Shown here one piece after another: positions 27,143 through 63,805 of a stretch of 64,000 nt of DNA (positions are counted from its first letter, which is position 1; every line of letters begins with the position of its first letter). A program made the position numbers and the translations under genes. This stretch comes from Chelatococcus composti (GTDB lineage Bacteria > Pseudomonadota > Alphaproteobacteria > Rhizobiales > Beijerinckiaceae), in the NCBI RefSeq assembly GCF_014201415.1, contig NZ_JACHEH010000007.1, forward strand, positions 149,346-213,345. Direction: 5' to 3'. Below the pieces are notes generated by a model. The model searched no databases, was not told the DNA's origin, and saw nothing but the letters and a program-made list of their open reading frames with translations.

Positions 27143-27373
27143 ATGGAGAGCCTTACGCTTGGGACTAGGCGCGCCGCTACGGACGACCGGCAGTGGTGTG
27201 CTCAACTTCGGTGTAGGAGTTGTCTCGCAGAGCAATTGGTGCCGGTGCCGGCGTCCGTAGTCCGGGACGGGATCTGGCGTGGCTCGGCCTTCGTCTGCGC
27301 GGCATGCGACGGGCGGGCGGCAGTTGTCGTGGGCTTCATGATCGACCGCCGGACAGGGACGCTGGGCGCCTAG
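27143..27373 (+). CDS. Small putative zinc-ribbon protein (76 aa)
   Basis: It starts at ATG 27143 after GGGGATGAC. Two CxxC pairs, RCRSC and VCAAC, are separated by about 28 residues, the usual zinc-ribbon spacing. It is transcribed against the repressor gene and overlaps its end by 4 bases. No family is recognised; it may be a DNA-binding accessory. Confidence 0.5.
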   Translation: MESLTLGTRRAATDDRQWCAQLRCRSCLAEQLVPVPASVVRDGIWRGSAFVCAACDGRAAVVVGFMIDRRTGTLGA

Positions 27374-28107
27374 AAAAGAGGCACCTCATTCTCGATGCGG
27401 CGGACGATCGCGAGGATTCTGACCTGCCGATGGTCTTCTTCGCTCGGATCGCGTGCCAGCACGCGGGGGACGACGATCGGCTTATGTTGTTGGTTATGCG
27501 AGCGAGGATGGAATTCCGTGCGGTCCTCGTAAAGCTCGATCTGCTTGACCGACCACTCGCGGTGGTGGCCGCCATCGAGCGTCTGCTCCACGACGACGAC
27601 CATGCCATCGCGCAGCGGCAAGCGCCCCCGCAGATCCTCAAAGTCAAGGCAGACGATGCGGTCACCGGGCAGGATCGGGCGGGGCTTGAGGGCATTCATG
27701 CTGTCGCCGCCTACGTCGAACGCGACGAGCCGAACATCTGGAAAGTCCCGGTCGCGGGTGGTGACGATGGAGGCTGGCCTGTCTTCGTCGCTGAACCAGG
27801 GGGCCTCGCGGAAGGCGCCGGCCTCCACGGTGCCCGCGACGTTGACCTCGACGAGGGGTGCGTTTGACAGGGTGAGGGGACGCTCGCTGCTCTCTCCTGT
27901 GTGCTCGGCGAGCAGGAACTCGACTGTCGTATCCAGGGCCTTCGCCAGCTTGGAGAGGTTCTGGCCTCGAACGGATTTCTTTTTCCCGGTGAGGATGTCC
28001 ACGATGAAAGAGCGCTCGAGCCCGCCAAGGCGGGCGGCCTCGAACGGATTGCGCCCAAGCTCGGCCAGCCGGTCGGCAACGCGGTTGCGGAAAGTCGTTT
28101 CACCCAT
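27370..28107 (-). CDS. S24-type self-cleaving phage repressor (CI-like)
   Basis: The 245-residue protein starts at ATG 28107. An N-terminal HTH (RVADRLAELGRNPFEAARLG, then ERSFIVDILTGKKKSV) precedes a LexA/S24 peptidase domain. That domain has Ser136 in VGGDSMNAL, Lys188 in SVKQIEL, and an Ala91-Gly92 pair in NVAGTVEAG as the likely autocleavage bond. This fits an SOS-inducible lambda CI-like repressor. Operators with the GTAGGA-N4-TCCTAC dyad lie just upstream of its start and in the leftward promoter. It diverges from the Cro-like gene. Confidence 0.88.
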   Translation of the reverse strand: MGETTFRNRVADRLAELGRNPFEAARLGGLERSFIVDILTGKKKSVRGQNLSKLAKALDTTVEFLLAEHTGESSERPLTLSNAPLVEVNVAGTVEAGAFREAPWFSDEDRPASIVTTRDRDFPDVRLVAFDVGGDSMNALKPRPILPGDRIVCLDFEDLRGRLPLRDGMVVVVEQTLDGGHHREWSVKQIELYEDRTEFHPRSHNQQHKPIVVPRVLARDPSEEDHRQVRILAIVRRIENEVPLF

Positions 28108-28142
28108 GACGGATTTATCCGACTTTCCAGCGGTTGACGCGA

Positions 28143-28187
28143 GTAGGAAGTGTCCGCTTGACGAAGTAGGAAATATCCTACTATGCT
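28143..28187. promoter_or_regulatory. Immunity operators and rightward promoter
   Basis: GTAGGAAGTGTCCGCT (28143-28158) and the perfect palindrome GTAGGAAATATCCTAC (28166-28181) lie between the repressor and cro. Each follows a TTGACG box (28134-28139, 28158-28163). The second has TATGCT (28182-28187, 18-base spacing) or TACTAT (15-base spacing) as -10, so the operator covers the promoter core. Confidence 0.75.
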
Positions 28188-28197
28188 CGGCGTCGCC

Positions 28198-28521
28198 ATG
28201 GAACATGAGCTTCGCCATCACCTGATCTCCTGCGCTCGGGCGCTTGCTGCGCACCGCGGTATCGAGCCGACGACCGTTGCGCGCCTGGCGGCCGGGGATT
28301 GGCGCTTTCTCGATCGCATCGCGTCAGGAAGTTCGTTCACGGCGCGAAAGTACGATCAAGTCATGCGGTGGTTTTCTGATCAGTGGCCCGACGACCTGCC
28401 CTGGCCCTCAGATGTGCCGCGTCCTTCGGTTCCTCCCGGCCGCCCCCGGCCAACTTCGCCGGAGCGGAGCGCGTCTCCGCTCCGGCCTCTTCCGGGGAGG
28501 GGGCGTGATGCTCGCGCATGA
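28198..28521 (+). CDS. Cro-like regulator
   Basis: The 107-residue protein starts at ATG 28198, 11 bases after the candidate -10 box. The N-terminal part (HLISCARALAAHRGIEPTTV, then ARLAAGDWRFLDRIASG) and TARKYDQVMRWFSDQWPDDL match a small HTH family found beside repressors in rhizobial prophages. The last 30 residues are Pro/Arg-rich and may be poorly conserved. The divergent arrangement with the repressor and shared operators suggests a Cro role. Confidence 0.7.
   Translation: MEHELRHHLISCARALAAHRGIEPTTVARLAAGDWRFLDRIASGSSFTARKYDQVMRWFSDQWPDDLPWPSDVPRPSVPPGRPRPTSPERSASPLRPLPGRGRDARA
28458..28486 (+). terminator. Strong hairpin near the end of cro
   Basis: GCCGGAGCGGAG (28458-28469) and CTCCGCTCCGGC (28475-28486) form a perfect 12-bp stem with a 5-base loop inside the cro 3' end. 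The T run is absent (CTCTTCC), so it may be a Rho-dependent or antiterminator-controlled site. Confidence 0.4.
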
Positions 28522-28682
28522 CCGCAACGGCGGCCTTGGCAAGGGCGTAGCGCCGGAGAGCGCTGCGCAGGCGTTCTCGCGCTGCCTCGATGCGCTGCTC
28601 GCGGTCGTCGCCAGTTTGCTGCATCTGCGTGGCCCTCCGTGATCTGACCGCCTGACTGTCCCACTGCTGAGCCTTTTTCCCA

Positions 28683-28709
28683 ACGAAAAAGCTGAGGAGC
28701 TTTTTTCGT
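28683..28709 (+). promoter_or_regulatory. Hairpin holding the ribosome site and start of the CII-like gene
   Basis: ACGAAAAAGCT (28683-28693) pairs with AGCTTTTTTCGT (28698-28709, one bulged T). GAGG in the loop and AGGAG at 28695-28699 form the ribosome site. The GTG start (28708-28710) lies in the 3' arm. The shape also resembles an intrinsic terminator with a T-rich 3' arm. Confidence 0.55.
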
Positions 28710-29193
28710 GAGCGCTGCTGCTTTGCCCGACGGGCTCTTCACCCTCATCAAGAGCGCGATCCGCGAGCTCGTCGCGGCCTGTGCCGTGCCCGGCTCGACG
28801 GGGCCGGAGCGCGTGGAGCAGCTCACCGGCTATTCGCGCGGCTCCATCAGCCGCTGGCAGGGGGACGCCTACAGGGACCTGCCGCCGCTCGACGTGGTCG
28901 TCCTGCTCGAGTTCACGACGCAGCGGCCTGTCGTCTCGCGTTGGCTTGCTTCGCTTTCCAGCCATCAGCTCGTGCCGATGGCCGACAATGGTGACACGGG
29001 CTGCCTTGTGCATGACCTCGTGAGGACCAGCGGCACGGCCGCCCGCGTGACGGGCGAACTGAGCGCAGCGCTTGCCGACGGTGTTGTGACGCCGCGGGAG
29101 GCCAAGGCTGTGAAAGCCGCCATTGGCGAGCACATGGAGACGCTTACCAGTGTGCGCCGCAAGCTCGCCGGCGTTGCCGCCAGGGGCGAATGA
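28708..29193 (+). CDS. Phage CII-like transcription regulator
   Basis: The 161-residue protein starts at GTG 28708. An HTH (VEQLTGYSRGSISRWQGDAY) is followed by LPPLDVVVLLEFTTQRPVVS and LASLSSHQLVPM, which resemble the CP76-type phage regulatory CII proteins. The C-terminal half is helical (GELSAALADGVVTPREAKAV). It is the second rightward early gene; expression could be controlled by the hairpin over its start. The exact role is inferred. Confidence 0.65.
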   Translation: MSAAALPDGLFTLIKSAIRELVAACAVPGSTGPERVEQLTGYSRGSISRWQGDAYRDLPPLDVVVLLEFTTQRPVVSRWLASLSSHQLVPMADNGDTGCLVHDLVRTSGTAARVTGELSAALADGVVTPREAKAVKAAIGEHMETLTSVRRKLAGVAARGE

Positions 29194-29194
29194 C

Positions 29195-29392
29195 ATGTGC
29201 CGGCGCTTCACTGCCCACTTCCTGCGCCACCCGCGCCGGTGGCGCATCGCACGGCGCATGGCCGCCGCCGGATGGCCGAGGTACGCCATCTGCCGCGCGC
29301 TCGGCATCCGGGCCGAGCGCCTCGCCGCCGCGATGGCCCGGGCGGACCTGCGGGGCCCGGCTGAGGTGGCGCTTTTCCGGAGGGCTGCGTGA
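29195..29392 (+). CDS. Small basic HTH-like protein (65 aa)
   Basis: Basic and helical, with YAICRALGIRAERLAAAMAR suggesting a helix-turn-helix. It starts one base after the preceding stop and overlaps the primase start (TGATG). Function unknown. Confidence 0.6.
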   Translation: MCRRFTAHFLRHPRRWRIARRMAAAGWPRYAICRALGIRAERLAAAMARADLRGPAEVALFRRAA

Positions 29393-30597
29393 TGGCGCGC
29401 CTGTCCGAAGCCCAGCTCGACGAGATCCGCGCCCGCCACCCGGTGGCGGAGGTAGCCGGCCGGTGGGTGACCCTGCGCCGCTCGGGCAGCAAGCTCATCG
29501 GCCCGTGCCCGATCTGCTCCGACAATCGCCAGAGCCGGACGGCCGGCCGCTTTGAGGTGGATGGCGACCGCTGGGTGTGCGCCGTGTGTGCCGATGGCGG
29601 TGACGTGATCCGCCTCGTGCAGCGGGTGCAGGGGCTCGACTTCCGCGCTGCCGTGGCCTGTCTGGGCGGGGCCGAGGTGCTTGACCCCGAGGAGGAGCGG
29701 CGCCGGCAGGTGGAGCGGGAGCGCCGGCGCGCCCGGCGCGAGCGCACGGCCGCCATCATGCGCGAGCGGGAGCGGGAGCGCCTCTTTCGTCTGTGGCAGG
29801 GGGCCGAGCCGATCCGCGGCACGGCGGCCGAGGAATACCTGCGCCTCCGCGGGCTGAGGCCTCCGCCCGACGGGCGCCTGCGCGCGGCGCGCGAGATGCC
29901 CTACTACCACGGCGAGGAGCCGGATCCGCGACGGCCGGGCAAGACGCGGCAGCGCGTGATCTATACGGGTCCGGCCATGCTCGCCGGCATCGTGGGCCCC
30001 GACTGGCGCTTCGCCGGGCTGCACATCACCTGGGTGGACCCGTCGCGGCCGAAGGGCAAGGCGCTCATCGTCGACCCCGAGACGGGCGAGGTACTCAAGG
30101 TCAAGAAGGTGCGCGGTTCCAAGCGGGGCGGGCACATCCACCTCGCCGGCCCCTTCGGCCCGCAGGCGCGACCGAGGCGCGTGATCCGCGGCGAGGGCAT
30201 CGAGACGGTGCTGTCCGTCCGCCAGGCGCTCCTGGCGCAGGGGGAGGACCTGAGCGCCACCGTTTTCCAGAGCTCCATCGACCTCGGCAATCTCGGCGGC
30301 CAGCACGCCGGCACGGTGCCGCACCCCGCGCTGACGCGCGCGGACAGGGCAGGGCGCGAGCGCTCCGTGCTCGTGCCCGGCCCGGTTCCGGACATGAGCC
30401 AGCCGGGCATCCCGCTGCAGGATAGCGTGACGGAGCTGGTGCAGCTCGGCGACGGCGATTCCGAGCGCTTCCTCACCGAGTGTGCGCTGCTGCGGGGCGC
30501 GGCCCGCTACGCGCGGCCGGGCCTCACCATCCGCAACGCCTGGGCGCCGGAGGGGGCGGACTTCAATGACCTGCTGCTCGAGGAGGTGGCGGGATGA
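29392..30597 (+). CDS. Phage primase with CHC2 zinc finger and Toprim-like domain
   Basis: The 401-residue protein has an N-terminal zinc finger (Cys39, Cys42, Cys63, Cys66; GPCPICSD, WVCAVCADGG). A long basic, coiled-coil-like helix follows. The C-terminal Toprim-type region contains RGEGIETVLSVRQAL. It is related to the DnaG-like or DUF7146 phage proteins that make primers. It would act with the P4-type helicase encoded downstream. The stop overlaps the methyltransferase start by ATGA. Confidence 0.82.
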   Translation: MARLSEAQLDEIRARHPVAEVAGRWVTLRRSGSKLIGPCPICSDNRQSRTAGRFEVDGDRWVCAVCADGGDVIRLVQRVQGLDFRAAVACLGGAEVLDPEEERRRQVERERRRARRERTAAIMRERERERLFRLWQGAEPIRGTAAEEYLRLRGLRPPPDGRLRAAREMPYYHGEEPDPRRPGKTRQRVIYTGPAMLAGIVGPDWRFAGLHITWVDPSRPKGKALIVDPETGEVLKVKKVRGSKRGGHIHLAGPFGPQARPRRVIRGEGIETVLSVRQALLAQGEDLSATVFQSSIDLGNLGGQHAGTVPHPALTRADRAGRERSVLVPGPVPDMSQPGIPLQDSVTELVQLGDGDSERFLTECALLRGAARYARPGLTIRNAWAPEGADFNDLLLEEVAG

Positions 30598-31178
30598 GAC
30601 AGGGCGCGGACAGGCACGCGCTGGCCGAGCGCAAGGATGACCTTTACGAGACGCCGCCGGAGGCGACCCGGGCGCTGCTGCGTGTTCAGCCCCTGCCGCC
30701 GCGGATCTGGGAGCCGTGCGCAGGCCGCGGCGCCATTGCGCGCGAGCTGGCAGCGGCCGGACACGAGGTGGTGGCATTCGACCTCGTGCCGCACCCCGGC
30801 GCCGACCCGGGAATCGTGACGCCCGTCGACTTCCTGCTGGAGCGCCAGGCGCCGGAGGGCTGCGACTGCATCGTGACGAACCCTCCCTACAAGCTGGCGG
30901 ACGCCTTCATCCGGCACGGGCTGACGCTGGTTCCGACCGTGATCGTGCTGCTGCGCCTCATGGCGATCGAGGGAGCGGGGCGCTCCGACCTCATCGACCG
31001 GCATCTCGTGCGCGTATGGGCGGGCATCGAGCGCCTGCCGGCCATGCACCGTGAAGGCTGGACGGGCAACCGCCTGAGGGGCGCGGGCGCGCCCTTCGCC
31101 TGGTTCGTGTTTTCCGCCAAGCCCCGGCCGGCTGGAAGCCCCGTCGAGCTCATGCGCATGTCGTGGAGGGAGCCATGA
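30594..31178 (+). CDS. Putative N6-adenine DNA methyltransferase
   Basis: The 194-residue protein has a class I SAM-binding motif (PCAGRGAIARELAAAGHEVV, residues 41-60) and catalytic motif NPPY (96-99). Its small size implies it relies on a general or accessory target domain. It could protect phage DNA from host restriction or methylate sites read by the GcrA-like regulator encoded next. The target is not readable from sequence. Confidence 0.8.
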   Translation: MRQGADRHALAERKDDLYETPPEATRALLRVQPLPPRIWEPCAGRGAIARELAAAGHEVVAFDLVPHPGADPGIVTPVDFLLERQAPEGCDCIVTNPPYKLADAFIRHGLTLVPTVIVLLRLMAIEGAGRSDLIDRHLVRVWAGIERLPAMHREGWTGNRLRGAGAPFAWFVFSAKPRPAGSPVELMRMSWREP

Positions 31179-31714
31179 CGGACCCGGCAATCCGGGATGC
31201 CATTGTCGCCGCCTATGGACGGGAGAGCGCCGCTGCGCTGGCCGCGCGCTACGGCAAGACGAAGAATGCCGTCATCGGCATCTGGTTTCGCCATGTGCCG
31301 CCCGAGCAGCGGGCGGAGATGCTGCGCAGCCCGGCGCGAAAGGCGGTGATGGCGGCGGCAAGGGCCCGCAAGGCGCGGGCGCGGCGGGAGCGGAAGAAGG
31401 CGCTCCCCGTGGAGCTGCCGGCGCTGCAGATGGAGCCGGCCCGCGAGCCGTTCTCGGAGATCGGTGTCGGCCTCATCGACCTCTTGCCGGAGCACTGCCG
31501 GTTTCCCATCGGGGACGGGCGTGCCATCCGCTACTGCGGCGCGCCGCGGCTGTACAAGCCGGGCATGTTCTCGGACGGCTGCTCGCCCTACTGCGAGGAG
31601 CATACGCGGCTTTGCTATGTGCCGCTGGAAGCGCGGCAGGAGCGGAAGCTCAAGCGCAAACAGAAGGACGTGGCACGGCGCCGGCCCCAGCAGATCGCGT
31701 GGGGGGGGCTGTGA
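31175..31714 (+). CDS. GcrA-like regulator
   Basis: The 179-residue protein starts at ATG 31175, overlapping the methyltransferase stop. The N-terminal HTH (ALAARYGKTKNAVIGIWFRH) and the C-terminal CRFPIGDG and IRYCGAP motifs with Cys/His (CSPYCEEH) match GcrA. In Caulobacter, GcrA binds sigma-70 and acts at CcrM-methylated promoters. A basic Arg/Ala-rich linker connects the two parts. A phage copy could redirect host transcription. Confidence 0.75.
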   Translation: MTDPAIRDAIVAAYGRESAAALAARYGKTKNAVIGIWFRHVPPEQRAEMLRSPARKAVMAAARARKARARRERKKALPVELPALQMEPAREPFSEIGVGLIDLLPEHCRFPIGDGRAIRYCGAPRLYKPGMFSDGCSPYCEEHTRLCYVPLEARQERKLKRKQKDVARRRPQQIAWGGL

Positions 31715-32007
31715 TGAGCGAGACAGCCATCTTGACTGCCAACGCAAATCAGCGCACCGTCCTGGCGTTGTCGTGGGGTGGAAGCCGCGACAGCCGCACA
31801 ACGGAGCGCGTCCGACGCGCCAATGACGACCGTCTGTTTTGGGCGCGTTTTTCTTTGGCGCATCCCTATGGTCGGGCGCGGCGGGGGGCCTGTGGGCCCG
31901 CCGTGAACGCCGTGCGCTCCGTGCGGCTGGATCGGTCTTCCAACCCACCGTTGCCCGGCCACCAGGGTGGAAGCTGGCAGCCGGGCTCAGTGAACGGAGC
32001 ACCGGCC
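31715..32007 (+). other. Unassigned segment, structured
   Basis: The next CDS could be extended in frame to ATG 31714, but this part has poor coding character. It contains a GC hairpin (CGGCGGG at about 31890 with CCCGCCG 11 bases later) and an atypical T-rich patch near 31838. It may be a leader RNA or an overlapping ash-like reading frame. Confidence 0.35.
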
Positions 32008-32328
32008 ATGACGTATCCCGTCTCGGCGCGCGCTGACGCGTGCCCGCCTGATCTTCTCGTCTACGACTGCTTTGTCGCAATTTGCGAGGCTGTGGCCGAC
32101 ATCAACGGCCTCGTCACGGCGGGCTCCGCTATCGTCCGCCAGGTCGATAACCAAGATCTGCGTGCCGCGCTGGGCGGCATCAACAAGGTCATCGATTCAG
32201 TATCGCGGTTGATCGCCGAGCATGCAGAGCGCGGTCTTGAGGCCGACGCCGAGCGGCGGATGCGAGAGAAGGCGATGGGCGGTCCGCGAGCGCCGCGCCC
32301 CGTGCCGCGCGCGGAGGTAGGGGCGTGA
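32008..32328 (+). CDS. Hypothetical phage protein (106 aa)
   Basis: It starts at ATG 32008 after GGAG. It is mainly helical (CFVAICEAVADINGLVTAGS, then IVRQVDNQDLRAALGG). An in-frame ATG at 31714 is an alternative start. No family recognised. The stop overlaps the antirepressor region. Confidence 0.55.
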   Translation: MTYPVSARADACPPDLLVYDCFVAICEAVADINGLVTAGSAIVRQVDNQDLRAALGGINKVIDSVSRLIAEHAERGLEADAERRMREKAMGGPRAPRPVPRAEVGA

Positions 32329-32330
32329 CC

Positions 32331-33128
32331 ATGCAGAAGGTCATCCCTGTCGACTTCCGTGGCGACGTCATCTGGGCCGTTGATGACGATGGCGCCGTCT
32401 TCATTGCCGTTAAGCCAATCGCGGAGCGGCTCGGCCTCAGCTGGGGAGCCCAGTACAGGCGTCTCCAGCGCGACGCGGTCCTGTCTAAAGGTATTTCCAT
32501 CATGGCAATACCTTCGCCTGGGGGGGCGCAGGACACCGTCTGCCTACCGCTCGATTTTATCCCTGGCTTTCTGTTCGGCCTCGACGAAAGGCGCGTGAAA
32601 CCGGAACTGCGCGAGAAGGTCGTCGCCTACAAGCGTGAATGCCATCGCGTGTTATACGACCGCTTTTTCGGCCAAGGAGCCGAGGGGCAGGGGCCGGACG
32701 AGGCGCCCCCTTTCCGCCGCGTCCTTTTGCCTGGCCATCCCGATTTCAGCCAAGCGGTGCGGCTGGTACGAGAGGCGCGCCTCACGCGCGGGACTGAAGC
32801 CGCGCTCGCCATCTGGCGGGTGATCGGCTTGCCGTGGGTGCCCGAGCTTGAGGCAGCTGCCGCAACTGGGAGAATCGGCGAGCCGACGGATTCCGTCGCG
32901 CAGTTTGCGGTCGATGGCATTGAGCGTGCGCCGGGTGTTTCAACGCCGGCTGCGGCGCTGTGGCAGGCATACTCGGCCTTCTGTACGGCCCGGGGGCTCG
33001 AAAACCTTGGCGAGCGGAGCTTCCTGACGCGCTTTGCGAGCATCGGATTCGCGAAGCGGAAGTCCATGGGCCGCTCGGTCTATCTCAATATCCGGCCGGT
33101 TGTCGCGGCGGGCGAACGAGCGGAGTGA
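32331..33128 (+). CDS. Phage antirepressor-like protein with primase C-terminal-type domain
   Basis: The 265-residue protein has an N-terminal P22_AR_N/Ant-like domain: VIWAVDDDGAVFIAVKPIAE, RLGLSWGAQYRRLQRD and LREKVVAYKRECHRVLYDRF. A middle linker follows. The C-terminal segment (AAALWQAYSAFCTARG, FAKRKSMGRSVYLNI) resembles the winged-helix tail of the primase-helicase encoded downstream. The domain sharing suggests a fusion, perhaps to bring antirepressor activity to DNA. It was likely recruited from the neighbouring gene. Confidence 0.75.
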   Translation: MQKVIPVDFRGDVIWAVDDDGAVFIAVKPIAERLGLSWGAQYRRLQRDAVLSKGISIMAIPSPGGAQDTVCLPLDFIPGFLFGLDERRVKPELREKVVAYKRECHRVLYDRFFGQGAEGQGPDEAPPFRRVLLPGHPDFSQAVRLVREARLTRGTEAALAIWRVIGLPWVPELEAAAATGRIGEPTDSVAQFAVDGIERAPGVSTPAAALWQAYSAFCTARGLENLGERSFLTRFASIGFAKRKSMGRSVYLNIRPVVAAGERAE

Positions 33129-33200
33129 GCGGATGCTGGCTGCTTGCCACGTCACCCGCGTCTGTCGCGCCCAGCGATCGCCGAACTGGCGGAGTCCGGC

Positions 33201-34964
33201 ATGACCGATGACCCGTTGCGCACCATTGCCGAGATCGTGGAGAACGCGGAGCCGGTGGACATTGCGCCCACCGGCGATGGCGGCGGCCCTCGCACACCCG
33301 GCGGCGGGGATCGAGGCGTGGGCGGCGGCGAGCCGCCGGAGCTTGTGCCTGATCCGGTGGACTGGGAGCTGGTGCGCCGCTGCGCTGCCGAGCCGGAGAC
33401 GGACATTGGCAATGCCCGGCGCTTTCTGCACCGCTACCGAAACGACGTCATCTCCGTGATGCGCATCGGCTTCCACGTTTACGACGGGCGGCGGTGGGCC
33501 GAGGACGTGGAGGGAGCGAGCATTCGCCCCCTGGCGCACAGGACGGTGGAGGAGATCCGCCTTGAGGCGACGCTGGTCGAGCCGACCGAGGAGGAGCAGG
33601 CGGCCATCGCAGCGGCCGAGGAGGTGATGCCGCGGTATACTAGGCTGAAGAAACTCGGCCGCCAGCGCGCGCCCGAGGAGGAACTGGAGCTGCTGCGCCT
33701 CGGAGAGATCGTGGGGCTCGGCGCCGAGGTGGCCAAGGCAATCTCGGAGCGGCGCGCCAGGCGCGTGCGCTATGCCAAGACCTCGGCCTCGTCTGGAAAG
33801 ATCGACAACATGCTCAAGGAGGCGGCTGTCTATGTCGCGAAATCCGTCTCCGAACTCGACGCCGACCCTCTCGCCATCAATTGCCACAACGGCACGTTGC
33901 GCCTCGTCCGGCAGGGCGAGGGCAAGCAGGCCATCTGGACCGTGCGGCTCGACCCGCACCGGCGGGAAGATCTCATCTCCAAGCTGATCCCGGTGGCCTA
34001 TGACGACGCGGCGGAGTGCCCGAACTTCCTGCGCTTCATCGAGACGGTGCTGCCGGACGACGAGGTGCGCGCCTTCATGCAGCGCTACCTGGGCTATGCG
34101 CTGACGGCCCTGACGGGCGAGCAGGTCTTCGTCTTCCTCTACGGGCAGGGGCGCAACGGCAAGTCGACCCTCGTGGACCTCATCTGCCGGCTGCTCGGCG
34201 ACTATGCTGCATCCGTGCCCTTCGAGACGCTGGCGGGCGAGGACCGCCGCAAGGGGTCCGAGGCGACGCCCGAGCTTGCCCGTTTGCCGGGCACGCGGCT
34301 TGTGCGCGCGAGCGAGCCGGAGCAATCGATGCAATTTCGCGAGGCGATGGTGAAATCGCTCACCTCGGGCGAGCCCATCCTGGTGCGCCATCTGCACCGA
34401 GACTTCGTGGAGGTGTACCCCACCTTCAAGCTGGTCGTGTCAGGCAATCACAAGCCGACCATCAAGGGCACGGACGACGGCATCTGGCGGCGCGTGCTGC
34501 TGGTGCCGTTCCTCGTGCAGATTCCCAAGGAGGACATCGACCGCTCGCTGCCGGACAAGCTGTGGGCTGAGCGGGCCGGTATCCTCAACTGGCTCATTGC
34601 GGGCGCGCTCTCTTACCTGCAGGAGGGGCTGGGCATCCCGGAGGCCGTGCGGGCGGCCACGGACGAATACCGCGAGGAATCGGACCCGGTGAGCGCCTGG
34701 GTGCGCGAGGCCTGCATCGTCACCGGTGAGGACACCGACGTGATGACGCCGGGCGAGGCGCACGCCTCGTTCAAGGTGTTCTGCGAGCGGGCCGGCTTCA
34801 ATGCCTGGGGACCGACGACATTCAACCGCAACCTGCCGCTCAAGGCCGCGGCATTCGGATTCCGCAAGGCGAAGTCGATGGGCATGAGCCTCTACCGCGG
34901 CCTGCGCATCAAGGACGAATACCGGCCGCCCTCGCACACCCATGGCGGGGACAGCGAGGGCTGA
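33201..34964 (+). CDS. P4-family primase-helicase (D5_N type)
   Basis: The 587-residue protein starts at ATG 33201 after GGAG. It has an N-terminal unrelated part, a D5_N region, and an SF3-type helicase with Walker A GQGRNGKST near residue 314. The end (FRKAKSMGMSLYRGLRI) is the winged-helix tail. It would open the origin and unwind DNA. It lies just before a cluster of short repeats that may be that origin. Confidence 0.88.
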   Translation: MTDDPLRTIAEIVENAEPVDIAPTGDGGGPRTPGGGDRGVGGGEPPELVPDPVDWELVRRCAAEPETDIGNARRFLHRYRNDVISVMRIGFHVYDGRRWAEDVEGASIRPLAHRTVEEIRLEATLVEPTEEEQAAIAAAEEVMPRYTRLKKLGRQRAPEEELELLRLGEIVGLGAEVAKAISERRARRVRYAKTSASSGKIDNMLKEAAVYVAKSVSELDADPLAINCHNGTLRLVRQGEGKQAIWTVRLDPHRREDLISKLIPVAYDDAAECPNFLRFIETVLPDDEVRAFMQRYLGYALTALTGEQVFVFLYGQGRNGKSTLVDLICRLLGDYAASVPFETLAGEDRRKGSEATPELARLPGTRLVRASEPEQSMQFREAMVKSLTSGEPILVRHLHRDFVEVYPTFKLVVSGNHKPTIKGTDDGIWRRVLLVPFLVQIPKEDIDRSLPDKLWAERAGILNWLIAGALSYLQEGLGIPEAVRAATDEYREESDPVSAWVREACIVTGEDTDVMTPGEAHASFKVFCERAGFNAWGPTTFNRNLPLKAAAFGFRKAKSMGMSLYRGLRIKDEYRPPSHTHGGDSEG

Positions 34965-34979
34965 GGCGCGCCTTGCCGA

Positions 34980-35280
34980 GGGAGGCTAGGGAGGCTGGCG
35001 GGCGCGCGGCTCGGCTGCCTCCCTCGGGGAGGGCGAGGGAGATCAACGGGTTAGGACGGTAGGGAGGCTAGGGAGGCAATCCGGGCGGACGCGCGTGAGA
35101 GGCTGGCGCTCATCAGGGTTATGAGCGGGTTTCGTTCTTACGCATCACGACACTCTTGCCTCCCTACCTTCCCTGAAAGCGAACCGAAAGGAAAAAAGAG
35201 GAAAGAGTGCAAGGGTTTAGGGAAGTAAGAACCTGCGCATGGTGCCTCCCTGCGATCCTCCCTAGCGTCCCTTGCCTCCC
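34980..35280. repeat. GGGAGGC repeat cluster, candidate replication origin
   Basis: Eight exact copies of GGGAGGC or its complement GCCTCCC occur in 301 bases: direct at 34980, 34989, 35062, 35071; inverted at 35017, 35158, 35244, 35274. The direct copies form two identical pairs GGGAGGCTAGGGAGGC. A purine- and A-rich tract (about 35175-35210) lies among the inverted copies. Such iterons with a soft tract next to a helicase gene are a typical phage origin layout. Confidence 0.55.
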
Positions 35281-35302
35281 TGATGACAAAGGAGCGGCGG
35301 CA

Positions 35303-36181
35303 ATGACGGCAAAGCGGGTGATGGATATCGAGGCTGTGCTGCGGTGGGCCTACCGGGACGAGTTGCCGAAGGCCGCGCCGGCGCGGGCCGGGCTTGCGCG
35401 AGGGATGAGTGCCGCATGGAGCAGCGTCGAGTCCTTCGTCGAACTGCTCACGGTGATTGACGACAACAGCTTCGGCGTCGTGCCTGATCTCCTCTCCTCC
35501 AACGGCCCGCATGCGGACGCCATCGCCATCTTCGAGCGGGTGCGAGCGCTCGATGACCTCGAAATCGAGCTGCCCGACGACTGGAACCCCATGGTGGACC
35601 TCGGCGACCTCGGCGACCTCGGCCGGGAGGCGATTGCCCGCGCGATCGACGCCGCGACCATCGTCGACGAGCAAAATCGCCGCCGTCTCCGGCGCACGCC
35701 GCGCCGGCTCGTGGAGAAGCACGCCATCCTCGGCGGGTGCCCGGACTGGGAAATGGAGGTGCCGGTCGTTGAGGTGGTGCGCCGCGGGAAGACCGGACAG
35801 CCCGCCTGGTTCGTGAAGGAGACGATCTGGGAGGAAGCCTTCGGCGGGCAGCGCGTTGCGCGCGTCGTCGAGGTGGACGGCTTCAGCTACACGCGCCGCC
35901 GCCCTCGCCCGGGCGCGTACCAGAAAACCCACCTTGTTCCCGATCCGGTGCCAGGGCTCGTCGAGCGCGCAGAGTATGAGGTGTGGCGGGCGGCGCTCGA
36001 CCTGCTGACCGAGGAGCTTTCTGGCCAGCTCGAATCGATCGATGTGCGTCCTTCGCCTCGCCCGCACCGCCCGTGGGAGGTGGGGCGCCCCGGCCAGCGT
36101 GTCCTTGATAGTCTTCTGAAACCATTGCCGGACAAGGAAGTGAGGGCCAAACGCCCGCGGCGAGCGAAGCAGGGGGCTTGA
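35303..36181 (+). CDS. Hypothetical phage protein (292 aa)
   Basis: It starts at ATG 35303 after AAAGGAGC. It has acidic stretches with an LGDLGDLG repeat and a basic C-terminal tail (KEVRAKRPRRAKQGA). Similar-size proteins precede terminase genes in rhizobial prophages. No domain recognised; a role around packaging or replication switching is possible. Confidence 0.65.
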   Translation: MTAKRVMDIEAVLRWAYRDELPKAAPARAGLARGMSAAWSSVESFVELLTVIDDNSFGVVPDLLSSNGPHADAIAIFERVRALDDLEIELPDDWNPMVDLGDLGDLGREAIARAIDAATIVDEQNRRRLRRTPRRLVEKHAILGGCPDWEMEVPVVEVVRRGKTGQPAWFVKETIWEEAFGGQRVARVVEVDGFSYTRRRPRPGAYQKTHLVPDPVPGLVERAEYEVWRAALDLLTEELSGQLESIDVRPSPRPHRPWEVGRPGQRVLDSLLKPLPDKEVRAKRPRRAKQGA

Positions 36182-60786: not shown

Positions 60787-62094
60787 CTATCCTGCTACAC
60801 CACGCCCAGGGACATCATCTGCCCATCGGCCAGGTGCTGGAGGTGGCGGATAGGATAAGGCGTTCTGCCTTTGCTTCACCAACCGGGTGAATGACTCCAC
60901 ATCCATGAGCCAGGCCTGCTGTGCCGCCGTGTAGGTCGGGTGCAGGCTCCTGGGCAGCACAAGCTGAACCCGTTCAGCCTTCATCTCGTCCGTCTGGTTC
61001 TCGCTGATGCTGGGTTCGAGTGTCAGGAGGTGCTTGTCAGGAATGCGGGCGGCTTCGTTGAGGATTTGCCGCCACCTGTCCTTGCAGGTCGATTTCGATG
61101 CCAGCATCGTCAGCCTTGACTGTGGGAAGGCCGCACTGTGGTAATGGCTGATGTCCGGAAAGATGAAGTCAGGTTTCAGGTTGTTTTCGGTGACGCCGGT
61201 TCGCGTGTAGGTCACGCCGTGATCGGTGAATACCTGTTCAAGATGGTTTTCCAGCGCCGAGCCGGCCCGTGATTTCCTGCGTTGCAGGGCGCTTTGAACC
61301 AGCTTGATAAAGGGTTCCGTGTCCTCGATGCCGGACTGCGTGAGGCTGCGCAGCTTCTCGCCGAGCAGGTGCTTTTCGAGCGTGCGGAACAGGATTTCTT
61401 CCCGTTCCATCCATGCGACCAGCGCAGCGTCCGGGTCGTCATGGCTGGAAAGATCGCGGATCGTGCTTCTGGCATAGGCCGAGAACTCGACGGTTTTCGG
61501 GAATCTGCCATCAAACCTTGCCAGCATGTCGTCCAGATAGTTGGGCGCTTCCTCTTCCGGTTCGATGCCGATCTGTTCGAGGATCACTCTTGCTGCAAAG
61601 CCGATCCTGTCCTGTTCCGTTTCCAGCTCCGACTTGACGGAGAATCCTGGATGTGTGAGATCGGAAAACCCGAACAGCCACATGAGCTGCCGCTCGATGG
61701 TCGTGTCCTTCTCGGCCACGATGGCGAGTAGGTCGCCATCGGCCCGCCTTGCAATCACCAGCAGGTCGCCTTCCGCCGCGCACTGCGAGACAAGATTGGT
61801 CGGGAAGTACAGCCGGTATTCCCAGCGCATGACACCGCGTTCTTCCCTTGCCTTCTGGCGGGCGTCATACCACGTCAGGAATCCGTCCTCGATGACCGGT
61901 TCATCGTCCTGGTCGGAGAGATAGAGAAACCTTGCTGCGAAGCGAACCTTCCCGGAAGGCTCACCAAGGATCGAGCGAAGCGATTCCACGCCGTTGAACT
62001 CGTGCTGGTTCGACCGGATGACATCGGCCTCGACGGCGCTCAGGCGCTTGAGCGCGACACCCTCGAAATACTGCGACAGATAACCCTGTTTCAT
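60787..62094 (-). CDS. EcoRII-type type II restriction endonuclease
   Basis: The 435-residue protein has an EcoRII-like layout: an N-terminal effector-binding domain and a C-terminal nuclease from about residue 270. The C-terminal part shows SRAGSALENHLEQVF, KPDFIFPDISHYH and LASKSTCKDRWRQILNEA, the EcoRII catalytic region with Lys and Asp/Glu. The expected target is CCWGG, matched by the linked dcm-type methylase. EcoRII is about 404 residues; the extra 25 at the end (NALSYPPPPAPGRWADDV) may come from the IS junction. It overlaps vsr by 4 bases. Confidence 0.9.
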   Translation of the reverse strand: MKQGYLSQYFEGVALKRLSAVEADVIRSNQHEFNGVESLRSILGEPSGKVRFAARFLYLSDQDDEPVIEDGFLTWYDARQKAREERGVMRWEYRLYFPTNLVSQCAAEGDLLVIARRADGDLLAIVAEKDTTIERQLMWLFGFSDLTHPGFSVKSELETEQDRIGFAARVILEQIGIEPEEEAPNYLDDMLARFDGRFPKTVEFSAYARSTIRDLSSHDDPDAALVAWMEREEILFRTLEKHLLGEKLRSLTQSGIEDTEPFIKLVQSALQRRKSRAGSALENHLEQVFTDHGVTYTRTGVTENNLKPDFIFPDISHYHSAAFPQSRLTMLASKSTCKDRWRQILNEAARIPDKHLLTLEPSISENQTDEMKAERVQLVLPRSLHPTYTAAQQAWLMDVESFTRLVKQRQNALSYPPPPAPGRWADDVPGRGVAG

Positions 62095-62542: not shown

Positions 62543-63805
62543 TCAGGCAAATGCCAGTGGCGGCTGGACGACGCCGGCCTGCTCCTGTTCGATCATGGTT
62601 TCGACATGCGGAACCATGACGCGGGCCACCTCGCGCATGACCGGCATCACCACGCTGTTCCCAAACTGGCGGTAGGCCTGCGTGTCACTGACGGGAATGC
62701 GGAACGTGTCGGGGAATCCCATAAGGCGTGCGCATTCGCGCGGGGTCAAGCGGCGCGGCCGCTTGCGGCTTCCCTGCGAGACGAGGATTTCCGAACCATC
62801 CTTGTAATACCGGGCTGAAAGCGTGCGGGCCACGCTGTCCGGTGTGACCAGTCCGAAGCCGAAGCCGTTGCCGGCGGCACGGTGCTTTTCCGCATAGGCC
62901 TGGAGATAGGCCCACAGCTTGGGCGTGAGGGTGTATTTGGGCTGGACAGTCTGCCGGTCGTGATCGAAGTACCGGTCGCCATCCCACGGCAGCACGGGTT
63001 CGGTGCCGTCCGTCCGGTGCAGGATCGAGGAAAGACGCGGTCCCTCGGACGGCAGTTGCAGATCGTCCCATGAAAAGGCGGTTTTCTCGCGGAAACCAAC
63101 GATGATGATCCGTTCGCGGTGCTGTGGGGTGAAGTGCTGGCCGTCGATGATCCGGTGGTGCACGTCATAGCCCAGCTCGTCACGCAGGGTTTGCAGGATG
63201 ACGCGGAACGTGTTGCCCCGGTCGTGTGAAAGCAGGTTCTTGACGTTCTCCAGCAGGAATGCCTTGGGGCGCTTGGTGGCGATGATCCGCGCCACGTCAA
63301 AGAACAGCGTTCCCTGTGTCGTGCATTCAAAGCCGTGTGGCCGGCCAAGAGAGTTTTTCTTGGAGACGCCAGCAATGGAGAACGGCTGACAGGGGAAGCC
63401 GGCCAGCAGCACGTCGTGATCGGGAACAGCCTCGGCCGGAAAGGGAACGATGTCGCCAACGAAGGTGTGCCGTTCGCCGAAGTTCTCGACATAGGTTTTT
63501 TTCGAGAACCCGTTCCATTCGCTGGTGAAGACGCATTCGCCGCCGTGAGCCTCGAAGCCCATGCGGATGCCGCCAATCCCTGCGAACAGGTCAATGAATC
63601 TGAACCGGCCGCCGCCTGCCGGAGTGTGGGCGGCTTTTTGCAGCAGATCGCGCAATGCCGGTTCCAGCATGGCCGGACATGGGACTTCCCCCTTTTCCCA
63701 GCGCCTGACGGTCTTGGGTGTTTTGCCGATGTGTTCGGCTATTTCGCGCTGCGTGAACCTATCTCGGGCCTGCCGAAGCAGTTCCAGCGGTTGTGCATGG
63801 GTCAT
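62543..63805 (-). CDS. dcm: DNA cytosine-5 methyltransferase (Dcm/M.EcoRII type)
   Basis: The 420-residue protein has an N-terminal HTH ([20 protein letters not shown], residues 18-37) ahead of the methylase. The catalytic motifs are [14 protein letters not shown] (I), [11 protein letters not shown] with Cys139 (IV), LLENVKN (VI), [12 protein letters not shown] (VIII), [16 protein letters not shown] (IX) and [10 protein letters not shown] (X). It protects CCWGG-like sites. The HTH likely binds its own promoter palindrome. AAGGA precedes the ATG. Confidence 0.95.

Follow-up and report, generated by a model that had tools for sequence, protein, structure and literature searches.

The DNA analyzed here (the window, 64,000 nucleotides from Chelatococcus composti) contains an integrase-like gene beside tRNA-Asp as well as terminase, portal, tail sheath and tail-tape genes, which indicate a contractile-tailed prophage. 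In the early operon of this prophage, a gene for a small DNA methyltransferase (MTase) is followed by a gene for a GcrA-like regulator, and the ORF list and the sequence place the start of the second ORF 4 nt inside the end of the first (Table 1). The MTase stop codon and the regulator's ATG therefore share the overlap ATGA. This ATG was preferred to the alternative start, GTG 31163, because GGAGGG is located 4 nt ahead of it. The primase stop and the MTase start likewise overlap as ATGA. The first-pass annotation had described an NPPY methylase whose stop overlaps the start of a GcrA-like gene, both carried by a phage, and each part of that description was borne out by the ORF coordinates, the catalytic motif, the profile matches given below and the prophage setting.

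Table 1. Features of the early region, in window coordinates
Feature	Position	Strand	Details
S24-type repressor	27370-28254	minus	family match
CII-like protein	start 28708		family match
DNA primase	29389..30597	+	phrog_510, E 1e-60
Small single-domain NPPY adenine-type DNA MTase, predicted GANTC	30594..31178	+	194 aa; stop TGA 31176-31178
Catalytic motif TNPPY of MTase	30876..30890	+	residues 95-99; sequence and alignment A5
Shine-Dalgarno-like GGAGGG for GcrA-like gene	31165..31170	+	sequence; within MTase gene
GcrA-like regulator	31175..31714	+	179 aa; ATG 31175
Predicted helix-turn-helix (HTH) DNA-binding domain of GcrA-like protein	31175..31300	+	residues 1-42
Predicted sigma-interacting domain of GcrA-like protein	31457..31621	+	residues 95-149
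ORF without family match	31612-32328		contains GANTC 32194
C4 antisense RNA candidate	31864..31966	+	RF01695, 45.1 bits, cut-off 45 (borderline); between pair and antirepressor gene
GANTC site	32194..32198		126 nt before antirepressor start, inside ORF 31612-32328
P22_AR-type antirepressor	32325..33128	+	family match
D5/P4-type helicase	33144 (likely ATG 33201)		family match

In the immI region (c4-icd-ant) of P1 and P7, a C4 RNA precedes the antirepressor gene. The C4 candidate of the window (fold z -2.5) is likewise located ahead of an antirepressor gene, but it follows the MTase-GcrA pair. Near the right edge of the window, on that side of the prophage, an EcoRII-type restriction enzyme gene lies next to a gene encoding a cytosine-5 DNA methyltransferase whose N terminus carries an HTH (60790-62094 and 62546-63805, both on the minus strand).

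The two proteins of the pair

A profile search identified the MTase as phrog_799 DNA methyltransferase (E 7e-44), and residues T95, N96, P97 and P98 were invariant in alignment A5. The enzyme belongs to a family different from that of CcrM and is homologous over its catalytic domain to assayed phage CcrM-like GANTC methyltransferases. In the sections of PMC5537653 covered, GANTC methylation is demonstrated for members of this family, which includes the enzymes of Sinorhizobium phages LM21, 2LM21 and 3LM21 and of Paracoccus prophages, in a similar location before the replication genes. Judging by these relatives, which were tested by others, the window MTase is predicted to methylate the adenine in GANTC. 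The host carries its own CcrM and GcrA, with the chromosomal gcrA and ccrM on separate contigs.

Phage MTases often protect DNA, and the enzyme could accordingly be an anti-restriction or orphan restriction-modification enzyme to which its neighbor is irrelevant. The EcoRII-type pair described above would fit such a role, but that restriction gene has its own cytosine MTase alongside. In addition, no endonuclease family was found in the 8 other early ORFs tested (27370-36181), and the published kin of the MTase methylate the host's regulatory site. This explanation is considered improbable.

The GcrA-like protein scored 42.1 bits against Pfam PF07750 (cut-off 26.9), compared with 196 bits for the host core copy. 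Its score against the NCBIfam equivalog NF050816 was 34.5 bits, far under the cut-off of 280, so it is not a core orthologue. A viral scan with this protein alone confirmed no relative, and a scan with GcrA alignment A1 gave two. The predicted model matches both solved GcrA domains, with the match to the DNA-binding domain tied with that to an unrelated HTH, and the sigma-interacting half is kept. In comparison with 29 core GcrAs, the protein retains 34 of 73 conserved columns. Its recognition helix is altered at positions that are invariant or nearly so in that set (R30K, K36I, V37W and H38F), the N-terminal W is lost, and the NAVIG core of the helix is preserved. Binding to sigma-70 region 2 is likely in view of the kept sigma-interacting domain, and methyl reading is likely in view of membership in the GcrA family; because the recognition helix is altered, the exact DNA site may differ.

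These changes bear on another explanation, namely that the protein is a sigma-70 cofactor or appropriator that does not read methylation, or reads another mark, with the altered helix directing it to a phage-specific site. The changed residues, the low equivalog score and the fact that the relatives with context examined (L044 and L046) follow an unrelated TSPPY MTase are consistent with this. The preserved NAVIG core speaks against it, as does the fold match to the GcrA DNA-binding domain, although that match is the tied one. Overall, this explanation seems unlikely.

Recurrence of the pair

The primase-helicase interval was compared in nine loci, including the window, where it holds the MTase, the GcrA-like gene and the C4 candidate with the antirepressor. 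Across the early genes that were compared, locus L003 is 97-100% identical to the window, and it retains the MTase; it has no GcrA, C4 or antirepressor, and their place is taken by an HNH gene (L003 6699-7889, minus strand) that matches type IV restriction models. The MTase is also present in L004, where GcrA was not found, and in L005, so that three of the nine loci carry the MTase without GcrA. In L044, a Chelatococcus sambhunathii prophage, a GcrA-like gene 45% identical to that of the window occupies the same slot, and L046 has one that is 63% identical over a quarter of its length and frameshifted in its second half (L046 5980-7164). In both loci the gene immediately before GcrA encodes an unrelated MTase, a TSPPY enzyme of the N6_N4 family (beta-type). 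Neither MTase nor GcrA was found in the slot of L478 and L479. No match to the C4 model over the cut-off was obtained in L003, L044, L046, L005, L202 or L008. Thus, among the nine loci GcrA was found only behind an MTase (3/3, with two kinds of MTase), and the pair is not fixed in the window's own lineage.

The first-pass annotation had suggested a search for the pair in other prophages, which was done from both genes. On the GcrA side, a genome set of 136 stretches was assembled around extra PF07750 matches picked as over the cut-off in multi-copy genomes, a sample that takes in five further family genomes; each genome's top PF07750 match was left out, together with one second copy (G482) resembling contamination. 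A viral set of 80 loci came from the GcrA scan. The first GcrA model recovered 134 of the 136 genome loci and the second model all 216. Genes were called by a simple script, and MTases from the surveyed loci, picked by homology rather than position, went into a rebuilt MTase model. Clustering at 70% GcrA identity left 148 non-redundant loci, with a member carrying an MTase preferred as representative; L332, whose motif is damaged, thereby stands for L332/L333, of which L333 is intact.

An MTase of any kind was found in 35 of the 148 loci and none in 113, and the small family of the window MTase was located within 4-5 kb of GcrA in 19. It was GcrA's immediate same-strand neighbor in 13 loci, compared with 4.1 expected when MTases were placed at random among the same-strand genes of each locus (within-locus simulation, p about 2e-5). 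The genome set alone gave 8/11 adjacent (2.7 expected, p 6e-4) and the viral set 5/8 (1.3 expected, p 0.004); the genome figure is the cleaner of the two because the alignment used for the viral GcrA scan included GcrAs of paired loci. When loci of one MTase clade were merged manually on the basis of the tree, 7/12 were adjacent (p about 0.006). The beta, MT-A70 and Dam families showed no excess, with 4/17 adjacent and 3.5 expected.

Two broader explanations were set aside. Chance adjacency is disfavored for the small MTase family by the within-locus simulation, with the other MTase families lacking an excess, and the general claim that GcrA stands beside any adenine MTase was dropped on the p value of 0.48 for the beta, MT-A70 and Dam families.

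In 11 of the 13 adjacent pairs GcrA is the first gene and in 2 the MTase, which is also the order in the window. The overlap is exactly 4 or 1 nt in eight of these 13 pairs. When adjacency was mapped onto the MTase tree, with 15 rows marked as adjacent (L273, at 109 nt, and the window being added to the 13), it required 7 changes, of which starred branches force at least 5; adjacency has therefore arisen or disappeared on several occasions. Three of the 13 paired MTases have a damaged catalytic motif (TNTPW or SNVPW), so writing is not the shared function at those loci; these enzymes may be inactive or may serve as binding partners. The strict sigma-domain signature was found in 8 of the 13 paired GcrAs. 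Damage to the NPPW motif of a GcrA-adjacent small MTase was seen in L303, L332, L339 and L285 (TNTPW, SNVPW, SNIPW), and the gene pair persists there.

From the MTase side, GcrA was adjacent in 0 of 80 viral loci in the window's MTase clade and in 2 of 80 in the phiLM21 clade, in both cases among the matches listed, and in 7 of 48 in the L160 clade, where two of the seven, L434 and L465, duplicate loci L182 and L132. By a loose criterion, GcrA was found anywhere in the fetched flank (5, 3 and 3 kb, respectively) in 9, 13 and 13 loci among the matches listed, where some of the non-adjacent matches are short or HTH-only and the query alignments partly held paired MTases. The primase control scan gave 4 loci, too few for a baseline GcrA frequency. 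The possibility that a GcrA is hidden next to published GANTC enzymes was also pursued, and two profiles at E up to 1 gave no GcrA match in the stretches around the enzyme of phi2LM21, phi3LM21, phiLM21 or PPF1; the first three thus differ from the window in this respect. Seen from GcrA, the pairing exceeds chance as a class, with 13 adjacent pairs against 4.1 expected; it is rare within the window's own MTase clade, and the support for pairing from the MTase side is weaker than that from the GcrA side. Together with the damaged motifs and the incomplete occurrence of the sigma signature, these weaker counts argue against a single obligatory mechanism.

The main rival explanation is that the two genes are independent accessories, with the primase-helicase interval acting as a cargo slot, the MTase protecting phage DNA or serving replication, and the GcrA-like protein acting alone on CcrM-marked promoters. 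The slot does vary across L003, L004, L005, L044, L046, L478, L479 and the window, the window's own MTase clade has no adjacent GcrA among the viral matches listed, and in the sections of PMC3556154 covered a phage GcrA without a partner is described for phiCbK. On the other hand, adjacency to one MTase family is far above what random filling of a slot would give, and this is not the case for other MTase families. Independent cargo is possible but appears rather doubtful.

GANTC sites and a possible writer-reader cassette

GANTC is the most depleted palindromic pentamer between 22282 and 60000 (36 seen, 111 expected), an interval whose right boundary was chosen by hand and may not be the end of the prophage. 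The host flank is depleted too, though less so (37 sites where 67 are expected), and the effect need not come from the phage enzyme. By comparison with the ORF lists, few GANTC sites are located outside clear genes: 23390, which begins 28 nt before an ORF without an assigned function, 27050, 32194, and 33192, which is just ahead of the helicase's likely ATG. No site was found near the repressor/Cro, CII or C4 starts, or between GcrA and C4, and 31650-33250 contained no match to a sigma-70-like promoter consensus. By its position, the antirepressor gene, with GANTC 32194 before it, is a conjectural candidate target.

The best single account of the locus, to which we give about even odds, is that the MTase and GcrA-like genes form one writer-reader cassette. 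It builds on the observed gene order, the overlap, the prophage setting, the homology, the fold matches and the repeated pairing in distantly related viral and prophage loci. The MTase product would methylate adenine in GANTC, and the GcrA-like product would likely bind host sigma-70 and favor promoters with methyl marks; the likely benefit is that phage transcription becomes independent of the host cell cycle. The antirepressor gene just downstream may be one target. In Caulobacter, CcrM is active only late in the cell cycle; a phage replicating at other times would therefore bring its own methylation and its own reader. More broadly, alphaproteobacterial phages may repeatedly have built a portable two-gene switch that combines their own GANTC writing with reading by their own sigma-70 cofactor, so that phage (or host) promoters are turned on by methylation independently of the host cell cycle; we hold this wider proposal tentatively, at somewhat less than even odds.

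In terms of known systems, the sections covered of the Caulobacter crescentus GcrA/CcrM papers (PMC3667746, PMC7403470) likewise describe an adenine MTase together with a sigma-70 cofactor of the GcrA family that has a DNA-binding and a sigma-interacting domain. The window differs in that its genes overlap and are phage-borne, its MTase is of a non-CcrM family and its GcrA DNA-binding domain is divergent. The phiCbK-like phages and Agrobacterium phage Atu_ph08 encode a PF07750 protein for which an effect on host replication has been proposed, and unlike in the window, no coupled MTase is described in the sections covered (PMC3556154, PMC6630229). For phiLM21-like prophages of Sinorhizobium meliloti, a table lists GcrA cell cycle regulator (5) and DNA methyltransferases are likewise reported, with no coupling of the two described in the part of PMC12429752 covered. 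The covered part of PMC9437464 mentions GcrA and CcrM analogues of phages together, each as a case of its own. No description of a coupled, recurring pair was found in the covered parts of the literature searched. Parts of each kind are known.

Earlier work had reported both GANTC methyltransferases and GcrA homologues of phages and left their purpose open; the coupled, recurring pair gives them a joint, testable one, making the reason for phage CcrM-like enzymes directly testable. If the cassette reading is true, a phage owns both the writer and the reader of a mark that times host transcription, a compact natural epigenetic switch.

Other arrangements were observed during the survey. In viral contig L296 (5001-6145), a canonical-looking GcrA gene overlaps a DPPW-motif gene that is an MT-A70-type methyltransferase in appearance. 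In L008 (2830-3981), a 383-aa frame about 2 kb ahead of a window-family methyltransferase apparently joins an HNH-like part, recognized by eye, to a GcrA-like part. Genome G017 contains four short GcrA-like frames of 89-102 aa (L073-L076) in which the Pfam match covers the sigma-interacting half only, and these are possibly stand-alone sigma-binding proteins. A further match is located inside a long frame in L072.
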